A stretch of DNA of 38,703 nt, taken from positions 1 to 38,703 of the forward strand of contig JANYGI010000149.1 in NCBI GenBank assembly GCA_025362495.1. Direction: 5' to 3'. Source of the DNA: Byssovorax sp. (GTDB lineage: Bacteria > Myxococcota_A > Polyangia > Polyangiales > Polyangiaceae). Positions within the stretch are counted from its first letter, which is position 1. The number at the start of each line of letters is the position of its first letter. The position numbers were made by a program, and so were the translations under genes. Shown here in pieces: positions 6,303 through 38,703 of the stretch. Below the pieces are notes generated by a model. The model did no database searches. It was not told the origin of the DNA and worked only from the letters and a program-made list of their open reading frames with translations.

Positions 6303-6904
6303 AGCCCGCGTCGTATCTTCTCCTCGCCGTCGCCCTCCTCGGCTGCACGGATCCGAAGAGCCACGCCGCGCCGGTCGCGTCGGCCGAGACCACGGTCGAT
6401 CCGGCGACGATCCCCGCCGAGGACGCGGGCCCGAGCGACGCCGGGGCCGACGCGAGCGACGCCGCGGCTCCCCGGCGTCCGTTCGTGGCTCCCAGCGTTC
6501 GCACGCTCGACATCCCCGAGGAGACGAAGAGCCCGATCCCGAAGACGCCGGAGTGGACCGATACCGTGCGTCGCGACGTGGTCGTCCGGCCCGAGTACAC
6601 CTGCACGCTGCAGCACGTCCGCGAGTGGAACCGGATCACCTGCGACGCCGCGAACGCGACGGTCACGCTCGTCACGGGCACGCGCGACGGGACCTTGCTC
6701 TGGGCCACCCGCGACTCGGCGCAGATCCTGTTCCCGGTGCGCCGCGGCGATCGCCGGGTGATCGAGCTGCTGCCCCACGCGAAGCTGGTGACGGTCGACG
6801 GAAACTACGGGCCGAGTCAGTTCGAGCAGCCGGGGGGAGGTCCCGTGGTCCTCACCGAGATGTGGTTGGAGGGTGAAGATGCGCCGACGCTCGTGGTCCA
6901 GTGA
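6299..6904 (+). CDS. Predicted lipoprotein of unknown function, coupled to the cytochrome gene
   Basis: 201 residues. The start is a TTG at 6299 overlapping the preceding stop (TTGA), so translation is probably coupled. The signal ends in ALLGC (Cys16). A linker rich in Ala, Asp, Gly and Pro (EDAGPSDAGADASDAAAP) leads to a globular beta-rich domain at about 75-200 with two Cys (YTCTLQH, RITCDAAN) that could form a disulfide. No family was recognised. The operon position suggests it acts with the haem protein, and its codon use matches the neighbours. Confidence 0.75.
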   Translation: MKPASYLLLAVALLGCTDPKSHAAPVASAETTVDPATIPAEDAGPSDAGADASDAAAPRRPFVAPSVRTLDIPEETKSPIPKTPEWTDTVRRDVVVRPEYTCTLQHVREWNRITCDAANATVTLVTGTRDGTLLWATRDSAQILFPVRRGDRRVIELLPHAKLVTVDGNYGPSQFEQPGGGPVVLTEMWLEGEDAPTLVVQ

Positions 6905-12020: not shown

Positions 12021-13480
12021 CCGAGCCCCTTGGCGACCGAGTAGCGGCTCGCCGGATCGGGCACGAGCTCGACGCCCGTCGGGGTCGCGACGGCGCGCTG
12101 GATCACGCCCGTCACCGCGGCGCCGTCGAGCGCGATCGACACCAGCGTCGGGTTGCGGAAGACGAGGCCCTGCACGCCGTCGAGGGCGTCGAGGGTCTGC
12201 CCGCGGAAGGCCTGGTACACCGGCGCGAACGCCGTGTCGTCGCCGAGCATCGCGTCGCTGAGGCGGATCAAGCGCACCCACGTGCCGCTGTTGAAATAGA
12301 ACCCGGGCGATCGCTTCCGCCGCAGCGCGCGCGCGAGGTGCGTGTGCCCGGCGACGACGAAATCGAAGCTCGGCCCCACGCGATCGTCGAGCCCGCGGAA
12401 CACGTCGTCCTCGGTGTCGATGGCGAAGGTCTTGTCGCCCGCGAGCCAGCCTTGCAGCGACGTGCGGAGATCCTTCGAGGGATCACGGCGCAGGAGCGCG
12501 TCGTAGATCAGATCGCCGAAGCCGAGCGTCGCGCCGGCGGGCGAGAGATCGACCGCGCCCTTGCCCTCGCGGTACAGGCCCTCGACCTCTTCGAGGAGCT
12601 GCGCGGCCTTCGCCGGCCCGCTCGGCGCCGCGGCCTCCGGCGCCCTGTCGCGCTGCACGAGCGCGGCGAGCGCGGCCTCGTCGCTCGGCGCGGCCTGCTC
12701 TGCGCCGAGGAAGCCGCTGCGCATCTCCTGCACCCCGAGGCGCATCGCGATAGGGGCGAAGCGCTTCAGCGCCGCGAGCGCCGTGGGATCGAGCGCGAGC
12801 AGCACCGCGACGACGGGCTTGGTTTCGGGCTTGAGCAGATCCACCATCGGGAACGTGCGCTTGATCCCGTTCATCACGTCGATCACCAGGCGCGTCCCGG
12901 CGTTGGGATCCCACACGGGGACGGCGCGGGCCTGGCGCAGGCTCTGGATCACCTGGTTCAACGCGGCCTGATCGACGACGTTCCACGCGTCGACCTCGTT
13001 GCCGTGGACGCAGAGCACGCGGCGCCCGCCGACGCTGACCGCGTAGCCGCTTCCATCCATGGCGATCCGCACGCGCCCCCGCGCTTCCAGGCTGTCGCCG
13101 CAGATCGCGAGGAGGAGCCGCTCCTGCACCTCGGGCAGCGCCAGCTCGACGTCGTGGTTGCCGATCGCGAGGACCAGCATCCGCAGCGGGGCGCGCACGA
13201 AGCGCGCGAGGGCTTCAAAAACCGGGCTGAACGCCGGATCGCCGAGCACCGCTTCGAGCTTGGCGACAGCGCCGTACGGATCGAGGTACGTCGCGCCGGG
13301 GGCCGCGAGGAAGTCCACGATGTCGCCGTTGAGCACGAGGCCCACGCGCGCGCCTTGGGCCCGCGTCGTCAGCGCGTCGATCGTCGCGGCGAGCAGCGGG
13401 CCTTGATCGAAGATCTGGTGTCCGGGCGCGCCGCCGAGGTGAAGGTCAGAGACGGCGTGAAGCTGATCGAGCTGATCCAT
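12017..13480 (-). CDS. Calcineurin-like metallophosphoesterase
   Basis: 487 residues from the ATG at 13480, chosen because it lies 10 residues before the first metal motif and has an AAGGGG tract upstream. The metal-binding series is complete: DLH (Asp12, His14), GD (Asp53), GNHD (107-110), VHGNE (His159) and GHTH (378-381). It is longer than the usual core because a helical insert of about 200 residues (about 165-365, rich in Ala and Glu) separates the VHG and GHTH motifs. There is no signal peptide, so it should be cytoplasmic. The substrate (nucleotide, nucleic acid or phosphoprotein) cannot be read. It is the first gene of the leftward arm, and its stop overlaps the CHAT start. Confidence 0.88.
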   Translation of the reverse strand: MDQLDQLHAVSDLHLGGAPGHQIFDQGPLLAATIDALTTRAQGARVGLVLNGDIVDFLAAPGATYLDPYGAVAKLEAVLGDPAFSPVFEALARFVRAPLRMLVLAIGNHDVELALPEVQERLLLAICGDSLEARGRVRIAMDGSGYAVSVGGRRVLCVHGNEVDAWNVVDQAALNQVIQSLRQARAVPVWDPNAGTRLVIDVMNGIKRTFPMVDLLKPETKPVVAVLLALDPTALAALKRFAPIAMRLGVQEMRSGFLGAEQAAPSDEAALAALVQRDRAPEAAAPSGPAKAAQLLEEVEGLYREGKGAVDLSPAGATLGFGDLIYDALLRRDPSKDLRTSLQGWLAGDKTFAIDTEDDVFRGLDDRVGPSFDFVVAGHTHLARALRRKRSPGFYFNSGTWVRLIRLSDAMLGDDTAFAPVYQAFRGQTLDALDGVQGLVFRNPTLVSIALDGAAVTGVIQRAVATPTGVELVPDPASRYSVAKGLG

Positions 13481-32748: not shown

Positions 32749-33025
32749 TGCGGAGGTCGTAGCAGCGGATTCGTAGCTCGCTTGGAAATCGACCGTGATC
32801 GCCAGCGTTTTGTTCAGCCACAACGGTAACATGGGCCGTCCAGCGTGGAAGCCTTCCCACGAAGACCGTTTGGATACCGGCGGTCGAAAATGGTCGCGCA
32901 ATGGCACGGTCGATTCCCCGTGACCGATTCTTCAGCAAGATCATTCTATCGAAGCATGCCCCTTGTTCCGCCTTCGGTAATTCCCGAAAATAACATCTTT
33001 GAGACTCATTCGCCACGGAACCACC

Positions 33026-34216
33026 ATGCCCGATCACTCGCTGAATACTCACCTAGCCGAACAACTCGCCGACTTGAAAAGCAAAGGGTTGTACAAGCGC
33101 GAGCGCCGCATTGAAACCCCACAAAACCCTGGTATCGCGGTCAATGGTCGAGAAGTTGTGAACTTCTGCGCGAATAACTACCTCGGGCTGTCAAACCACC
33201 CGGCCATCGTCCGAGCCGCACGGGATGCCCTCGACCAATGGGGTTTCGGGCTGTCTTCGGTGCGCTTCATCTGCGGCACCCAAGAGATTCACAAGCGGGC
33301 CGAACGCCAGATTGCCGAATTCTTTGGTTTGGCGGACAGCATCTTGTACATCTCGTGCTTCGATGCCAACGGTGGCCTCTTCGAGCCACTCCTCGGCGAG
33401 CACGATGCCATCCTGTCCGACGAGTTGAATCATGCCAGCATCATCGATGGCGTCCGCCTCTGCAAGGCCCAGCGCTTCCGGTACAAACATTCGAACATGG
33501 CCGACCTGCGGACCAAACTCATCGAGGCCAAGTCGGCCCGCTTCCGGATGATCTTCACCGATAGCGTCTTCAGTATGGACGGCGACTTGGCGAAGCTCTC
33601 TGAGATTTGCGACCTCGCCGACGAGTTCGATGCCATCGTCGCCATTGATGATTGCCACGGCACCGGCCATCTCGGAGCCACCGGCCGCGGTGCGGCCGAG
33701 GAACTGGGGGTCTTGGATCGCATCGACATTATCACCAGCACGCTCGGCAAAACGTTGGGCGGCGCCAGCGGTGGCTTCACCGCCGCAAGTGCCGAAGTCG
33801 TCGATTGGCTCCGCAACCGTTCGCGCCCTTACTTGTTCAGCAATTCGGTACCACCGTCGTTGGTCGCTGCGGGGATGAAAGCCTTAGAATTGGCCGATAC
33901 CAGCGTCGAACTACGGACGAAGTTGAAGGCGAACACTGCGAAGATGCGGCACGGTCTCGAAGCGGCGGGGTTCACTGTCAAGCCAGGCCCGACACCGATT
34001 CTACCCGTGATGTTTGGCGACGCCTCCATCGCCGGGAAGTTCGCAGAAGCTCTCTTGGCGAAGGGAATCTACGCCGTGGCGTTCAGCTTTCCCGTCGTTC
34101 CCCAGGGCCAAGCGCGCATCCGTTTGCAAGTTTCGGCGGCCCACACCGACGAGCAAATTGAAGCAGCCCTGACCGCCTTCCGCGAAGTCGGCCAAGCCAT
34201 GGGCGTAGTAAATTAG
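33026..34216 (+). CDS. kbl: Glycine C-acetyltransferase (2-amino-3-ketobutyrate CoA ligase)
   Basis: 396 residues from the ATG at 33026, nearly the length of E. coli Kbl; no good Shine-Dalgarno is visible. It shows the alpha-oxoamine synthase pattern: [59 protein letters not shown] and [13 protein letters not shown] with the PLP lysine Lys242. The SVRFICGT motif separates Kbl from AONS/ALAS relatives. It cleaves 2-amino-3-oxobutyrate with CoA to glycine and acetyl-CoA, the second step of threonine breakdown. The usual partner gene tdh is not adjacent. The 277-bp upstream gap holds no recognised gene. Confidence 0.95.
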
Positions 34217-34262: not shown

Positions 34263-34393
34263 CCACGCGGCAAATAATGGGATGCTGTCGGAAAGTAGAA
34301 TCCCATCCTATGGCCAAATTGCAATTCCTTGTAGACTTCGACACATTGCGCTGCGACCATCTTAACAGAATTCGTTCTTATGCGAGAATCTTC

Positions 34394-36865
34394 ATGAAGC
34401 ATTACTTGTGGGTTGGACTCTTACTTTCCACAGGATTCGGGCCTATTTTGGCTGCGGATGCTGGCAAACCTCTGAAATTGCCGGACGGAATTAGTGCCGA
34501 CAAACTCACCGATGTCAAGGAGGCAGCCAAAATCGCGGATCAGCTCGACAAGGAGTACCCTGCTCCGCAATCGGAAGCTGTGAAAATGCTCACGGCGATT
34601 CTGCGTGGCTCGCAATTGGAAGGCAAAGACGGTTGGTTCGGCCCAGCCCAAAGCCGCTACGACTTCGCTTGGCTCGCCGCACGGGCCGGAGCCGATCCGA
34701 AAGCCGTCACATTGCCACGCAGCAAGTTCGCAGCGTCGGCCAAACTGTTCGACATGCTCGACCGCGACGGCGATGGTGCTTTGACCCCCAGCGACCTCGA
34801 TTGGTCGGATCGCAGTTCCTACGTCATTCGTGCCAACATCATCAGTGGAATTTTCCGCAGGCTCGACCGCAGCGGCGATGGCAAACTGACTCGTGAAGAG
34901 TCGGATGCGTTCTTCAAGTTCCTGTCCGCCGGCAAGGATTCGTTCACGGCCGACGACATGCGCCGGGCACTCATTCCACGCGGCGCCGGCGGCTTCAATC
35001 CCGGCGATGCCCCCACCATCCCGGTCTTGGTCAAAGGGCTGTTCGCCGGCGAGATCGGTTCCATGAGCGAAGGCCCGAAACTCAACGAGGCCGCACCGGA
35101 CTTCACCCTGAAAACAGTGGACGGAAGCGAAACGGTGCAGTTGTCGAAACTCACGGGAAAAAAGCCGGTCGTCCTGGTCTTTGGCAACTTCACCTGCGGC
35201 CCATTCCGCGGCCTTTACCCCGATGTCGAAGCGATCTACCGTCGCCACAAAGATGCCGCAATCTTCGTGATGGTCTATGTGCGGGAGGCCCACCCGACCG
35301 ACGGCTGGAAGATGGATTCCAATGGACGCATGGGCGTGAAAGTAAAGCAGCCCACCACGAACGCGGAACGCAACGAGGTCTGCGAACAGTTCCAGAAGAA
35401 AATGAACCCCGGCATCACTTTGCTTGTGGATGATATCTCGGACCCCGCCGGCTCGGCCTACAGCGGCATGCCCGCCCGGCTTTACGTGATCGATCCGAAG
35501 GGCAAAGTGGCCTACAAGAGCGGTCGCGGGCCGTTCGGCTTCAAACCCGGTGAACTTGAGCAGGCCCTGGTCATGAACATGATGGAAAACACGCCGGAAG
35601 CCGACGCCAAACCGGCCCGACTGATGACCGACGAAGCCGCGTGGGCCAAGATGCCGAAAGTGGAAGCCGGCGGTGGCGTGCCGCTGCCGAACTGGGTCAA
35701 AGCCGTGGCGACCCATCTGCCACGCACGGCGGCGGCCATGCTGCTCCTGGATGAGGCCCAGCGGACGAAAGGGCCACTCGCCCCGGCTCTCCGAGCGAAG
35801 ATGCGTTGGGCCATCGCCAAGGCGAACCGCTGCGAGTATTCGCAACTGACGGCTTTGGCCGACTTGAATCGGGAAAGCGGTGCCGAGGCCGTCAAAATCC
35901 TGACCGGCGACGCGGCCCAGTGGCCGGCCGACGACCGCGAGCCGCTTGAGTTTGCCCGCATGTTGACGCTCGATGCACCGAAGGTGACTGATGCCCAGTT
36001 CGCCGCCTTGCAAAAGCGGTTCGGCGACAAGAAAGTTGCTGCGATGGTATACCTCGCGGCCTACGGCAACTTCCAAGATCGGTTGCTCCTCGGGCTGGCG
36101 GTTCCGCTCGAAACGGACGGCCCGATGGCACCGTTGACGGTGACGTTTGCCCCCGGTGCGCTCCAATCCGCTCCGCTGTTGCCGGAACAAAAGGAGCTAC
36201 CCAAACTGCTCGCCTCTGGCGAGTCGGTGGTGCCCGCCGAACCGAATTGGTCGAAGTTGTCGTTCGACGATTTGCAAACCCGGTTGGAGAAACAGCGGGA
36301 TCGCAAACCGCGCCTGGCGATCCCGAAATGGGACGACGTGAAAAGTGGTCTTCCAGCCGCATTCACCACGAAGCCGACGCGGATCATCTGGACGCTCTTC
36401 GGGTATGGATACGTCCCCGAACTGGCTGTGCCGTGGTCGGTCTGCACCAGAACCATGTGGGCGGAATCGCAGCAAGATCGCGTGTTCGAAGAAAGTTTGT
36501 TCTGGATCCAAACTCGGACGATTCAGTGCAACTACTGCATGGGCCACTGCGAAATGCTGCTGGAAGTCGCGGGGCTCGACAAGAAAGCGGTGGCAGAACG
36601 GACACGCCGGCTCGCGGGGGACGACTGGAGCTGCTTCACGCCAATGGAACAACGTGCGTATGCCTATGCACGGAAACTCACGGCCACACCGTGGGATTTG
36701 ACCACCGCCGACTACCGAGCACTGGAAAAAGACTCTGGGCCTGACAAAGCGATGTTCACGTTCTGGTGGCTCTGCCGTGGGCTGTACATGACCCGCGTTT
36801 CAGATGGGTTTCAACTGCCACTCGAGCGCGAAAACGTCTTCGGCGATCTCCCGGTTAAAAGGTAA
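34394..36865 (+). CDS. Exported EF-hand / deiodinase-like thioredoxin-fold / double AhpD-like fusion protein
   Basis: 823 residues from the ATG at 34394, which gives a clean signal peptide (hydrophobic VGLLLSTGFGPILAA). Two EF-hands follow: DRDGDGALT (Asp123-125-127) and DRSGDGKLT (from Asp158). Residues about 225-400 match the iodothyronine deiodinase family: VLVFGNFTCGPF with Cys268 where deiodinases have selenocysteine (codon TGC), VYVREAHPTDGW, and RLYVIDPKGKVAYKSGRGPFGF. Two AhpD/carboxymuconolactone-decarboxylase-like domains follow: one with a broken motif CEYS (480-483), one with CNYC-x2-H (712-718). It is probably a periplasmic redox enzyme; iodide chemistry is not implied. The gene stands alone. 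Confidence 0.85.
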   Translation: MKHYLWVGLLLSTGFGPILAADAGKPLKLPDGISADKLTDVKEAAKIADQLDKEYPAPQSEAVKMLTAILRGSQLEGKDGWFGPAQSRYDFAWLAARAGADPKAVTLPRSKFAASAKLFDMLDRDGDGALTPSDLDWSDRSSYVIRANIISGIFRRLDRSGDGKLTREESDAFFKFLSAGKDSFTADDMRRALIPRGAGGFNPGDAPTIPVLVKGLFAGEIGSMSEGPKLNEAAPDFTLKTVDGSETVQLSKLTGKKPVVLVFGNFTCGPFRGLYPDVEAIYRRHKDAAIFVMVYVREAHPTDGWKMDSNGRMGVKVKQPTTNAERNEVCEQFQKKMNPGITLLVDDISDPAGSAYSGMPARLYVIDPKGKVAYKSGRGPFGFKPGELEQALVMNMMENTPEADAKPARLMTDEAAWAKMPKVEAGGGVPLPNWVKAVATHLPRTAAAMLLLDEAQRTKGPLAPALRAKMRWAIAKANRCEYSQLTALADLNRESGAEAVKILTGDAAQWPADDREPLEFARMLTLDAPKVTDAQFAALQKRFGDKKVAAMVYLAAYGNFQDRLLLGLAVPLETDGPMAPLTVTFAPGALQSAPLLPEQKELPKLLASGESVVPAEPNWSKLSFDDLQTRLEKQRDRKPRLAIPKWDDVKSGLPAAFTTKPTRIIWTLFGYGYVPELAVPWSVCTRTMWAESQQDRVFEESLFWIQTRTIQCNYCMGHCEMLLEVAGLDKKAVAERTRRLAGDDWSCFTPMEQRAYAYARKLTATPWDLTTADYRALEKDSGPDKAMFTFWWLCRGLYMTRVSDGFQLPLERENVFGDLPVKR

Positions 36866-37026
36866 AATCGTTACATGCGGGCCGAAGATTCGACGATTAT
36901 TGATGTTTCGGCCCCATTGACTCACCTCCACACATTACTTAGACTTTTCCACACCCAACTTGGAACCTCCATGGGGGCAGTCACGGAAGGCTCGTTTCAA
37001 TCACCTTGCTTCTGGAGTCCACTCCG

Positions 37027-38703
37027 ATGCTCACGCACTTCCTCTCCCGGCTCTACCGTCCTACCGCACAAATTCGACCCGCTTCTAAAACGCGTGCTCG
37101 ACTGCTTAACTTGGAAGCGTTGGAAGCTCGGGATGTGCCCGCCGTGATCTACGCCCTGAACGAGACCAACGGGCTGTTCCGGTTCGACAGTGCGACCCCG
37201 GCCACCGTTTCGACCCCCGTCGCCATCACGGGCTTGGGTGTCGGTGAAACACTCCGGGGCATCGACTTCCGCCCACGCACCGGCCAGTTGATCGGGAGCA
37301 CAGTTGCCACGTCGAGCATTAACAACTCCGTCGTGAAAACGTACCGCATCAACCCGACGACGGGGGTGGCCACCCTCATCGGAGCCACGGCGGCCGCATT
37401 GCCGCAAGCGGGCGATGTGGACACGGGGTACGACTTCAACCCGACGGTGGATCGCATCCGCTTCGTCAACGACAACCCGAACAAGGAGAACGCCCGGTTG
37501 AACCCCAACACCGGGCTTCTGGCCGGCGACGACACCGACCTGACGTTCGTCGCGCCGGCGCTCGGCGACATCGTCGGCGCCGCTTACGACCGCAACACCG
37601 ACCGGCAGAATGCGACGCTCCTGAAAACAACGCTGTACGTCATCGACGAGAACGGCAACAACTTAGCCATCATCGGGGGCATTGATGGTGCCGGGCCGGG
37701 TGGCCCGAACGCCGGGGTCGTCACCGCCGTCGGGCCAATCGGTTTCAACGTGAGCGGTGGAGCAGATGTGGGTTTTGATATTGTGGAGACGCTAGATACG
37801 GCGACGAACAACAACGGCAATGGGACAGCGTTCGCCGCATTTACCACCAACTTGACGTTGAACTCGCTCTACACCATCAATCTGACAACCGGGGCGGCCA
37901 CGCTCGTCGGACAGATCGGCGACGGCAGCGGAATTCGCGGTTTGGCCGTAGCACCGGAAGGCGTGGTGGTCGTCGGCTCCGGTACCGGGGCCAACGGCGA
38001 CGTTCGTTTGTTTGACCCAACTACCGGGGCCCTGCGGATCGGGATCGTCCCGTTCGCGGGCTTCCAAGGTGGCGTCCGTGTCGCCGCCGGCGACGTCAAC
38101 GGCGACGGTATCCCCGATGCGGTGGTCACCGCCGTCGCGGCCCAAGGTCACGTCAAGGTGTTCGACGGCATCTCCGGGGCCGAGATCCGCAGCTTCTTCG
38201 CCTTCACGGGCTTCCAAGGCACCGTCAACGTCTCGACCGGCGACGTCAACGGCGACGGCTTCGCCGATATCCTCGTCTCGGCCAACGGGGCACCGGGCGG
38301 ACACGTCAAAGCGTTCAGCGGCCGCGACGGCACGGAACTCGCCAGCTTCTTCGCCTACGAGGGCTTCTTCGGCAACGTGACCGTATCGGCCGCCGACTTC
38401 GACAACAACGGCGTCAAAGAGATCGTGACCGCCGCCGCGGCCAACGGGCACGTGAAAGTGTTCACCGGCACCGGCACGGCGTTCACTTCGGCCACGCTGC
38501 CGACCTTTGTCAACAGCTTCTTCGCCTTCGACGGCTTCGGTACCGGCGATGTCAACGTGGCCGCTGGCGACCTGAACGGCGACGGCATCGCCGATATCGT
38601 CGTTTCGAGCGGGGTAGGCACGCAGGGCCACGTCAAAGGGTTCAACGGGTCGACCCACGCCGTGCTCGCCAGCTTCTTCGCCTTCGCCGGGTCGACCACG
38701 GGC
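37027..38703 (+). CDS. Planctomycete surface protein: DUF4394 domain plus FG-GAP-like repeats (3' end outside window)
   Basis: 559 residues from the ATG at 37027, open to the window edge. The N-terminus has a basic stretch and LLNLEALEARDVPA, the LExLExR-type motif found at the start of exported proteins in Gemmataceae. Residues about 40-300 match DUF4394: VIYALNETNGLFRFDS, LRGIDFRPRTGQLIG, TTGVATLIG, YDFNPTVDRIRFVND. From about 325 come VCBS/FG-GAP-like repeats with calcium-type loops DVNGDGIPD, DVNGDGFAD, DFDNNGVKE and DLNGDGIAD, spaced 50-58 residues. Such proteins are large extracellular or adhesive propellers. The upstream gap of 161 bp shows nothing clear. Confidence 0.9.
   Translation, partial: MLTHFLSRLYRPTAQIRPASKTRARLLNLEALEARDVPAVIYALNETNGLFRFDSATPATVSTPVAITGLGVGETLRGIDFRPRTGQLIGSTVATSSINNSVVKTYRINPTTGVATLIGATAAALPQAGDVDTGYDFNPTVDRIRFVNDNPNKENARLNPNTGLLAGDDTDLTFVAPALGDIVGAAYDRNTDRQNATLLKTTLYVIDENGNNLAIIGGIDGAGPGGPNAGVVTAVGPIGFNVSGGADVGFDIVETLDTATNNNGNGTAFAAFTTNLTLNSLYTINLTTGAATLVGQIGDGSGIRGLAVAPEGVVVVGSGTGANGDVRLFDPTTGALRIGIVPFAGFQGGVRVAAGDVNGDGIPDAVVTAVAAQGHVKVFDGISGAEIRSFFAFTGFQGTVNVSTGDVNGDGFADILVSANGAPGGHVKAFSGRDGTELASFFAYEGFFGNVTVSAADFDNNGVKEIVTAAAANGHVKVFTGTGTAFTSATLPTFVNSFFAFDGFGTGDVNVAAGDLNGDGIADIVVSSGVGTQGHVKGFNGSTHAVLASFFAFAGSTTG
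38191..38703. repeat. In-gene repeats of about 153-171 bp encoding FG-GAP-like units
   Basis: The block AGCTTCTTCG recurs at 38191, 38344 and 38671, with a shifted equal at 38515, each followed by CCTWC and a GGCTTC-type word. The spacing is 153, 171 and 156 bp. A more diverged unit precedes it near 38036. Such repeats can confuse short-read assembly near the contig end. Confidence 0.7.

Follow-up and report, generated by a model that had tools for sequence, protein, structure and literature searches.

What might a deiodinase-like domain do in a bacterial protein, and from where would it be re-reduced? The question is raised by P0001, an 823-residue protein encoded in a 38,703-nucleotide stretch of DNA from Byssovorax sp. 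(assembly GCA_025362495.1, contig JANYGI010000149.1; hereafter the window), which joins two EF hands and a deiodinase-like thioredoxin-fold domain to a pair of AhpD-like (CMD) domains, CMD1 and CMD2 (Table 1). Deiodinase-like proteins of bacteria were first described in 2005, when a redox role was no more than suggested (PMC1088965), and the available text of a 2026 review still gives them no specific role (PMC13188914). Judging from sequence and predicted structure, we favour, with a little more than even confidence, a reading of P0001 as an extracytoplasmic two-centre thiol redox protein with an AhpC/AhpD-like relay, in which the CMD site would re-reduce the deiodinase-like site. Several observations raise the likelihood of such an internal relay: the two halves have fused repeatedly, once in reverse order; elsewhere they are neighbouring genes; one lineage has TGA codons at each of the two centres; and the helper cysteine of deiodinases is lost.

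A deiodinase-like domain and an AhpD-like pair

The first half of P0001 belongs to the curated NCBIfam family NF038285 ('deiodinase family protein', a hypothetical equivalog), which it matched over residues 55–398 at 511.9 bits (membership cut-off 250). The family covers the EF hands and the deiodinase domain and leaves the CMD half outside; this part is hence not new, and the family name assigns no function. Residues 229–392 matched PF00837 at 91 bits (cut-off 27, E 9e-26) and AhpC-TSA at 33.1 bits (cut-off 26), and an ordinary AhpC/TSA identity was ruled out by this difference (33 vs 91 bits). An earlier note on this DNA had read the thioredoxin-fold part as deiodinase-like from its EAHPTDGW and GRGPFGF motifs and from Cys268 at the selenocysteine (Sec) site, and this reading held. 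The closest solved sequences were DIO3 (4tr3, E 4e-18) and DIO2 (9h48, E 8e-18), with Cys268 falling on the Sec position. In an AlphaFold2 model built from 50 aligned sequences (mean predicted local distance difference test, pLDDT, 89), residues 224–398 superposed on DIO2 (Z 17.3), and Foldseek placed DIO3 and DIO2 at the top of its ranking.

Likeness to DIO1–3 includes this fold, the Sec/Cys position, the GRGP motif and the Tyr-Glu-His-Thr residues of the deiodinase relay. In an alignment of 41 relatives with EF hands (EF-type rows), T267, Y295, E298 and H300 were each present in 41/41, and the nucleophile was Cys268 (40 rows) or TGA (one row); such conservation also rules out a chance frame or gene fragment. 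The second relay histidine (Dio2 His182) has no counterpart, its aligned residue being Pro320 in all 41. R378, which aligns with Dio3 Arg275 and Dio2 Lys241, is likewise Arg in every EF-type row and is Met in 20 of the 31 rows of a related family without EF hands. P0001 further differs from DIO1–3, which are membrane-anchored, in its probable export (judged by eye), its preceding EF hands and its following CMD domains. Membership is claimed for the deiodinase domain superfamily only, and not for an iodothyronine-deiodinating enzyme.

The two calcium-binding loops that the earlier note placed before this domain were recovered by Pfam at residues 117–135 and 153–169 (EF-hand_6 30.3 bits, cut-off 25), with their ligand positions conserved. 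This conservation speaks for Ca2+ binding only; calcium tuning of activity, which had been suggested, would be speculation.

Cysteine content bears most directly on how the domain might be re-reduced. Cys268 is the sole conserved cysteine of the first half among the EF-type rows. The helper position two residues before it is F266 (Phe in 39, Tyr in one and Val in one of the 41), and the distal cysteine of deiodinases aligns with residue 341, where Cys occurs in 0/41. DIO1 requires the cysteine two residues before Sec for re-reduction by glutathione (PMC9141512). Because helper and distal cysteines are both absent and Cys268 stands alone, the reducing thiol would have to come from elsewhere, and the CxYC site of the CMD half, invariant in the fused or adjacent partner, is therefore the natural candidate. 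In the relay that we propose, Cys268 would itself be oxidised on reacting with an oxidised substrate, for which a hydroperoxide or another electrophilic oxidant is the likeliest candidate; the Cys715/Cys712 pair would re-reduce it as AhpD does for AhpC; a periplasmic or secreted reductant would recharge Cys712–Cys715; and the EF hands would bind Ca2+, probably stabilising the exported protein. Reduction of the peroxiredoxin AhpC by AhpD is established (PMC3141380), and a peroxiredoxin motif and mechanism have been described for deiodinases (PMC11592359).

The earlier note had also called two AhpD-like domains in the second half, and both domain calls stood, largely through relatives and structure. 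On P0001 itself Pfam CMD scored 11.9 bits (E 0.24, cut-off 23), and the second half alone matched no Pfam family at E 0.01; among the 33 members of the module alignment A2, CMD was matched at E ≤ 0.01 by 20 (best 2e-11), the window's own half not being one of them. A profile of the CMD half matched PA0269 (E 7e-10) and the tetrabromopyrrole debrominase Bmp8 (E 2e-6), both across CMD1, and CMD1 of the predicted structure (residues 404–579) fitted the AhpD-like folds 2oyo, 6k40, 2prr and 6e8l (Z 16–17). Residues 411–808 of the model superposed as a single unit on human Sestrin2 (Z 25.1, 297 residues, root-mean-square deviation 4.0, 12% identity). CMD2 was matched solely within this superposition, which shows the twofold pseudo-symmetric double AhpD fold.

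The active sites of the two CMD domains differ. An 82-row CMD alignment, drawn from 57 loci and including a protein identical to that of the window (L032), has C480 in 74/82 and Y482 in 81/82 at the CMD1 site, and position 483 is never Cys. The CEYS site, which the earlier note had called 'decayed', thus shows the state of the whole family. At the CMD2 site, C712, Y714 and H718 were each found in 82/82, and position 715 was Cys in 79/82 and TGA in 3/82. The motif is CNYCMGHC, with its histidine at +3 from the second cysteine instead of the +4 of AhpD. The full AhpD relay set as described (Glu, Cys, His/Tyr, Cys, His at +4; PMC3141380) is not present in either domain, the histidine being shifted in CMD2 and the second cysteine absent from CMD1; CMD2 may be called AhpD-like by its presumed mode of working only. 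The arrangement recalls the AhpC/AhpD system in pairing a peroxiredoxin-like partner with a CxxC-bearing CMD partner, and departs from it in that the partners are fused or adjacent, probably exported, and of deiodinase type in the place of AhpC.

Sestrins offer a second comparison. CMD1 keeps Cys-x-Tyr with the second cysteine lost, as does Sesn-A, the N-terminal domain of Sestrin2 (PMC4674687), whereas the active CxYC lies in the C-terminal domain where sestrins have an electronegative DDYDY hinge, identity is low and the module is fused to a deiodinase-like domain. Sestrin membership was ruled out by absence of this hinge (PMC11429811) and by the C-terminal site, which reads CxYCMGH in 79/82 rows and CxY-TGA-MGH in 3/82. 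Bacterial double AhpD proteins with CxxC in the C-terminal domain only have been described as sestrin analogues (PMC11429811).

The loss of the CMD1 CxxC could also suit a mainly structural or sensing cell-surface protein with vestigial redox sites, and EF hands are found in structural secreted proteins too. We consider this highly improbable, since Cys268, Cys712, Cys715 and His718 are invariant in the aligned rows save for TGA replacements, which points to selected redox chemistry.

A quite unlikely alternative is a reductive dehalogenase, in which Cys268 (or Sec) would remove a halogen from a halogenated aromatic and the CMD module would either regenerate Cys268 or itself be a Bmp8-like dehalogenase. 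Conservation of the four deiodinase relay residues would suit such chemistry, as would the Bmp8 match over CMD1 (fold Z 16.7, predicted structure); Bmp8 has reportedly been likened to the thyroid deiodinase. R378 matches Dio3 Arg275, a proposed substrate-carboxylate clamp (PMC11592359) that the family without EF hands mostly lacks, and Bmp8 has been proposed to dehalogenate via a cysteine disulfide (PMC5577590). However, the second relay histidine is replaced by Pro320, and Bmp8 is a single CMD unit with both cysteines and no deiodinase domain, its two-cysteine site corresponding to CMD1, where the second cysteine is missing here. Nothing halogenase-like was seen by eye among the recurring neighbour clusters, of which no profile annotation was made, and the paper on Sargasso Sea sequences expected the bacterial members to function otherwise than in thyroid hormone deiodination (PMC1088965). 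Peroxide or another oxidant as the substrate of the proposed relay is, as a guess, more economical than dehalogenation.

Other CMD genes resemble the module without sharing its layout. Genes of 859–954 residues with two tandem double-CMD modules (four CMD domains) occur at L045, L049–L054, L056, L057, L060, L062, L064, L068, L076 and L079. Divergent double-CMD paralogues (~20–25% identity; L034 5647–7092, L052 4328–5776, L086 3764–5209 and 19 others) carry an intact CQYCLGHQE-type motif in their N-terminal CMD, whereas the module of P0001 has its intact motif in the C-terminal one. Stops lie inside the CMD genes of L080 and L066, and a frame break inside that of L070.

Fusion, neighbourhood and selenocysteine codons

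We assessed how the two halves are arranged in relatives through a scan of genome_contigs, which gave 59 loci, all from planctomycete records except L054, titled 'bacterium'. Among the 58 loci with strong matches, for which frames were called mechanically, 18 fuse both halves, 22 carry them as separate genes on one strand and one has them on opposite strands. The domain order of P0001 is therefore not unique: besides L032, a locus from a Fimbriiglobus metagenome-assembled genome whose protein is 100% identical to P0001 (which would make the window probably of Gemmataceae origin), it recurs in one open frame at 15 loci and, with an internal TAG, at L042; at L069 the order is reversed and the CMD pair precedes the deiodinase half. 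(The in-frame TAG of L042, at 6664–6666, falls at query position 283 in the deiodinase half and may be a sequencing error or mark a pseudogene.) Genes on the same strand were separated by less than 400 bp in 20 of the 22 pairs, three of them overlapping by 4 bp, and by 950 and 2316 bp in the remaining two. On a tree of the 41 EF-type domains with five outgroup rows, fused and separate states needed seven changes, and well-supported branches alone force at least five (fused label) or at least six (separate label). Alternating fusion and neighbourhood of this kind is a classical mark of partners that would act together.

Sec codons occur at both centres. As the earlier note had thought worth checking, planctomycete versions with TGA at position 268 exist: they make up 30 of 31 rows of the family without EF hands, rows that were drawn from 29 of the best-scoring loci of the NF038285 search (some weaker-scoring hits lack TGA), and include two EF-hand genes, L077 and L130. 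The former correspond to the bacterial deiodinase-like selenoproteins of the Sargasso Sea (PMC1088965) in having TGA at the catalytic position, and differ from P0001 in having no EF hands and mostly GGMGP in the place of GRGP. In 10 neighbourhoods of their 29 loci, no CMD module was found within ~12 kb (9.5 kb in one); partnership with the CMD module thus seems to belong to the EF-hand family. At the CMD position 715, TGA was found at L048, L054 and L077, which are the three such rows of the 82-row alignment, and at L130. The order of L077 recurs at L130, which lies in the same genome as L073: a deiodinase gene with TGA at 268 is followed by a CMD gene with TGA at 715. The two pairs are sisters (86% and 85% identical), and both TGA codons were kept across ~15% protein divergence. 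None of the fused or adjacent pairs seen combined Sec at one centre with Cys at the other. As Sec usually takes the place of a catalytic cysteine, TGA at the second CxYC position would mark Cys715 as the reactive residue, and TGA at 268 and 715 in adjacent genes suggests that both sites matter. An adjacent pair of genes for a Sec peroxiredoxin-like and an AhpD-like protein was met once in ocean reads (PMC2398784; echoed in PMC13188914).

The TGA-bearing double-CMD genes (CFY-TGA-MGH) form a group of 59–85% mutual identity: L048 2092–3321, L054 3242–4459, L077 3785–5026 and L130 2655–3890. About 9 kb from its CMD gene, L048 also holds a broken deiodinase-like remnant (12407–12655; GNMTWGPFR) with Trp where relatives have Cys or TGA. 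Two deiodinase-like genes adjoin in opposite directions at L019 and L024, both with TGA at the catalytic codon at L019.

Decoding capacity was consistent with these codons for L077, L048 and L054, in whose genomes selB passed its cut-off. In the genome to which the window belongs, selB scored 270.6 bits (cut-off 242; G000:C216:17085–19049, L091) and has tRNA-Sec beside it. P0001 as a selenoprotein was ruled out, the codons of Cys268 and Cys715 both being TGC; cysteine is thus used at both sites in a host that can probably decode Sec. Downstream RNA structure gave mixed signals. RNAalifold found no consensus fold after the TGA of the deiodinase half in 31 ungapped sequences, and obtained one for three CMD sequences. 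Single-sequence fold z-scores were weak (L077 two sites −0.05 and −1.05; L048 −1.35; L054 +0.84; L012 −0.49). A perfect stem of at least 6 bp followed the deiodinase TGA in 21 of 22 distinct sequences vs 19% of codon-shuffled controls, in a test devised after the hairpins had been seen, which covered no CMD sequences and 22 of the 31 deiodinase ones, a selection freed of near copies and of some further sequences. Hairpins after the deiodinase TGA appear longer than in codon-shuffled controls, which is supportive only.

Relay or independent modules

Several observations weigh against a relay between the two centres. At the CMD2 site, the +4 position is Cys719 in 81/82 rows, so that the AhpD relay histidine is replaced, and E700, at the place of the AhpD relay Glu (−12), is Glu in just 52/82; with Cys719 at +4 and His718 at +3, details would be expected to differ from AhpD. 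The Sec/Sec pairs of L077 and L130, being sisters, possibly reflect one event, and of the four loci with a TGA-bearing CMD gene, two (L048 and L054) lack an intact deiodinase gene alongside (in the genome of L054, no NF038285 match was found at E 1e-20). CMD alone was found at 17 of the 58 loci. The lack of deiodinase-only loci among the 58 is a selection effect: the scan was seeded by short peptides of both halves, and since these included YCMGHCEM, a strongly conserved CMD motif, a locus lacking CMD had little chance of being picked up. A counter-sample, the NF038285 search of 15 genomes (the genome of L077 together with 14 that carry CMD-only loci, out of the 17 such loci), has genome-level co-occurrence built into it. 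The deiodinase half passed the NF038285 cut-off in 10 of the 15, i.e. in nine of the 14 genomes of CMD-only loci, and no NF038285 match at E 1e-20 was found in the other five. These genomes listed 14 deiodinase genes, of which 11 were examined with their flanks, the other three apparently being those of L058, L075 and L077, already counted. At nine of the 11, the flanks taken contained no close CMD module. Finally, the predicted template modelling score (pTM) of 0.61 leaves the relative placing of the halves open in the model.

Within the same counter-sample, two of those nine loci do have a CMD gene farther downstream on their contig, at 6.3 kb (L132) and 9.2 kb (L135), and L131 has a divergent CMD gene ~3 kb upstream of the deiodinase gene. 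At L130 the CMD gene adjoins, and at L140 a single frame, broken by a stop, leads from the deiodinase part to the CMD part. The halves are neighbours frequently, and not as a rule.

These distributions would also suit two modules that act on peroxides or disulfides independently of each other and are joined only for co-location or co-expression, each reduced by outside thiols and with no electron transfer between them. We regard this as possible, if on the unlikely side. The CMD-only loci and the nine deiodinase-anchored loci fit it, as do the existence of the CMD half in ~900-residue proteins that hold two double-CMD modules but lack a deiodinase domain, and the low model confidence of the linker. 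It accounts less readily for fusion that is repeated and found in both orders, for the lack of mixed Sec/Cys pairs, and for a deiodinase half without any other conserved cysteine.

Even genome samples gave a different picture from the scan. NF038285 passed its cut-off in one of 377 genomes from the phylum, one of 317 from the class and one of 108 from the family, and the CMD module in one of the 377; in every case this single genome was that of the window (the phylum and class searches scored just a few candidates per genome). The two are hence rare in these even genome samples, despite the 59 loci in genome_contigs. The genome of the window yielded a single copy of either half.

Gene layout and meaning of the pairing

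The coordinates given for the gene in the earlier note were confirmed as an open frame. The longest possible frame opens at 34277, and a signal-peptide-like N-terminus arises, by eye, only from the start at 34394; residues 1–22 are a low-confidence stretch of the AlphaFold2 model.

Table 1. Features of P0001 in the window (nucleotide positions of the window; residues of P0001).
Feature	Position	Strand	Basis
Whole gene P0001, 823 residues	34394..36865	+	Uninterrupted frame, ATG at 34394 to stop at 36865
Probable signal peptide, residues 1–21, MKHYLWVGLLLSTGFGPILAADA	34394..34456	+	Judged by eye
NF038285 deiodinase_rel stretch (EF-hand and deiodinase half), residues 55–398	34556..35587	+	512–515 bits, cut-off 250
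EF-hand loop 1, residues 123–134, DRDGDGALTPSD	34760..34795	+	Pfam; D123 and D134 both in 41/41 EF-type rows
EF-hand loop 2, residues 158–169, DRSGDGKLTREE	34865..34900	+	Pfam; D158 in 40/41, E169 in 37/41 EF-type rows
Deiodinase-like (PF00837) thioredoxin-fold domain, residues 229–392	35078..35569	+	Profile, sequence and structure matches
Cys268 codon TGC, at the selenocysteine site of deiodinases	35195..35197	+	Alignment of EF-type and non-EF rows
EAHPTDGW motif, residues 298–305 (E298 and H300 of the proton relay)	35285..35308	+	Alignment, 41 EF-type rows
GRGPFGF motif, residues 377–383, including R378	35522..35542	+	Alignment
Linker joining the halves, residues 400–410	35591..35623	+	Mean pLDDT 61 over residues 401–410
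Double AhpD-like (CMD) module, Sestrin2-like pseudo-dimer, residues 411–808	35624..36817	+	Structure superposition
CMD1 one-cysteine site, C480-E-Y-S483	35831..35842	+	82-row alignment
CMD2 redox site, C712-N-Y-C715-M-G-H718	36527..36547	+	82-row alignment

Flanking genes in the window are, by look, a glycine C-acetyltransferase (kbl) upstream (32999–34216) and an exported protein with FG-GAP repeats downstream (37006–38703). Across the 59 loci, a prepilin-like gene (GFTLVELLVVIAIIGVLIALLLPA), which we take to be DUF1559-like, lies near the cluster in 22 (e.g. L037 2556–3587, L055 4186–5163, L076 3064–4011), and a small lipoprotein-like gene of ~140 residues in 20. Small proteins of ~140–210 residues with a CGDYL motif, exported by eye, were found near the cluster at L037, L038, L061, L086, L051, L055, L068, L045 and L076.

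Each part of P0001 is known already. The fusion, its recurrence, its reverse-order form and the Sec/Sec gene pair were not found in the available passages of the literature on deiodinases with AhpD or in planctomycetes, most subscription journals lying outside its scope. At its most far-reaching, the pairing could be a planctomycete extracytoplasmic unit of a Ca-binding deiodinase-type enzyme and a sestrin-shaped AhpD-type reductase, in one chain or as a gene pair and, for one lineage at least, with Sec at each of its centres, that dehalogenates halogenated aromatics; we think this very doubtful, and if true, it would tie deiodinase and Bmp8-type dehalogenation into one machine. For bacterial deiodinase-like proteins more broadly, a repeatedly fused partner, together with a gene pair that has TGA at both of its sites, points to a likely reductant and makes function testable. 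P0001 also provides a bacterial case of a sestrin-shaped double AhpD module physically joined to a domain of peroxiredoxin-like type, much as sestrins were at one time proposed to be partners of peroxiredoxins.

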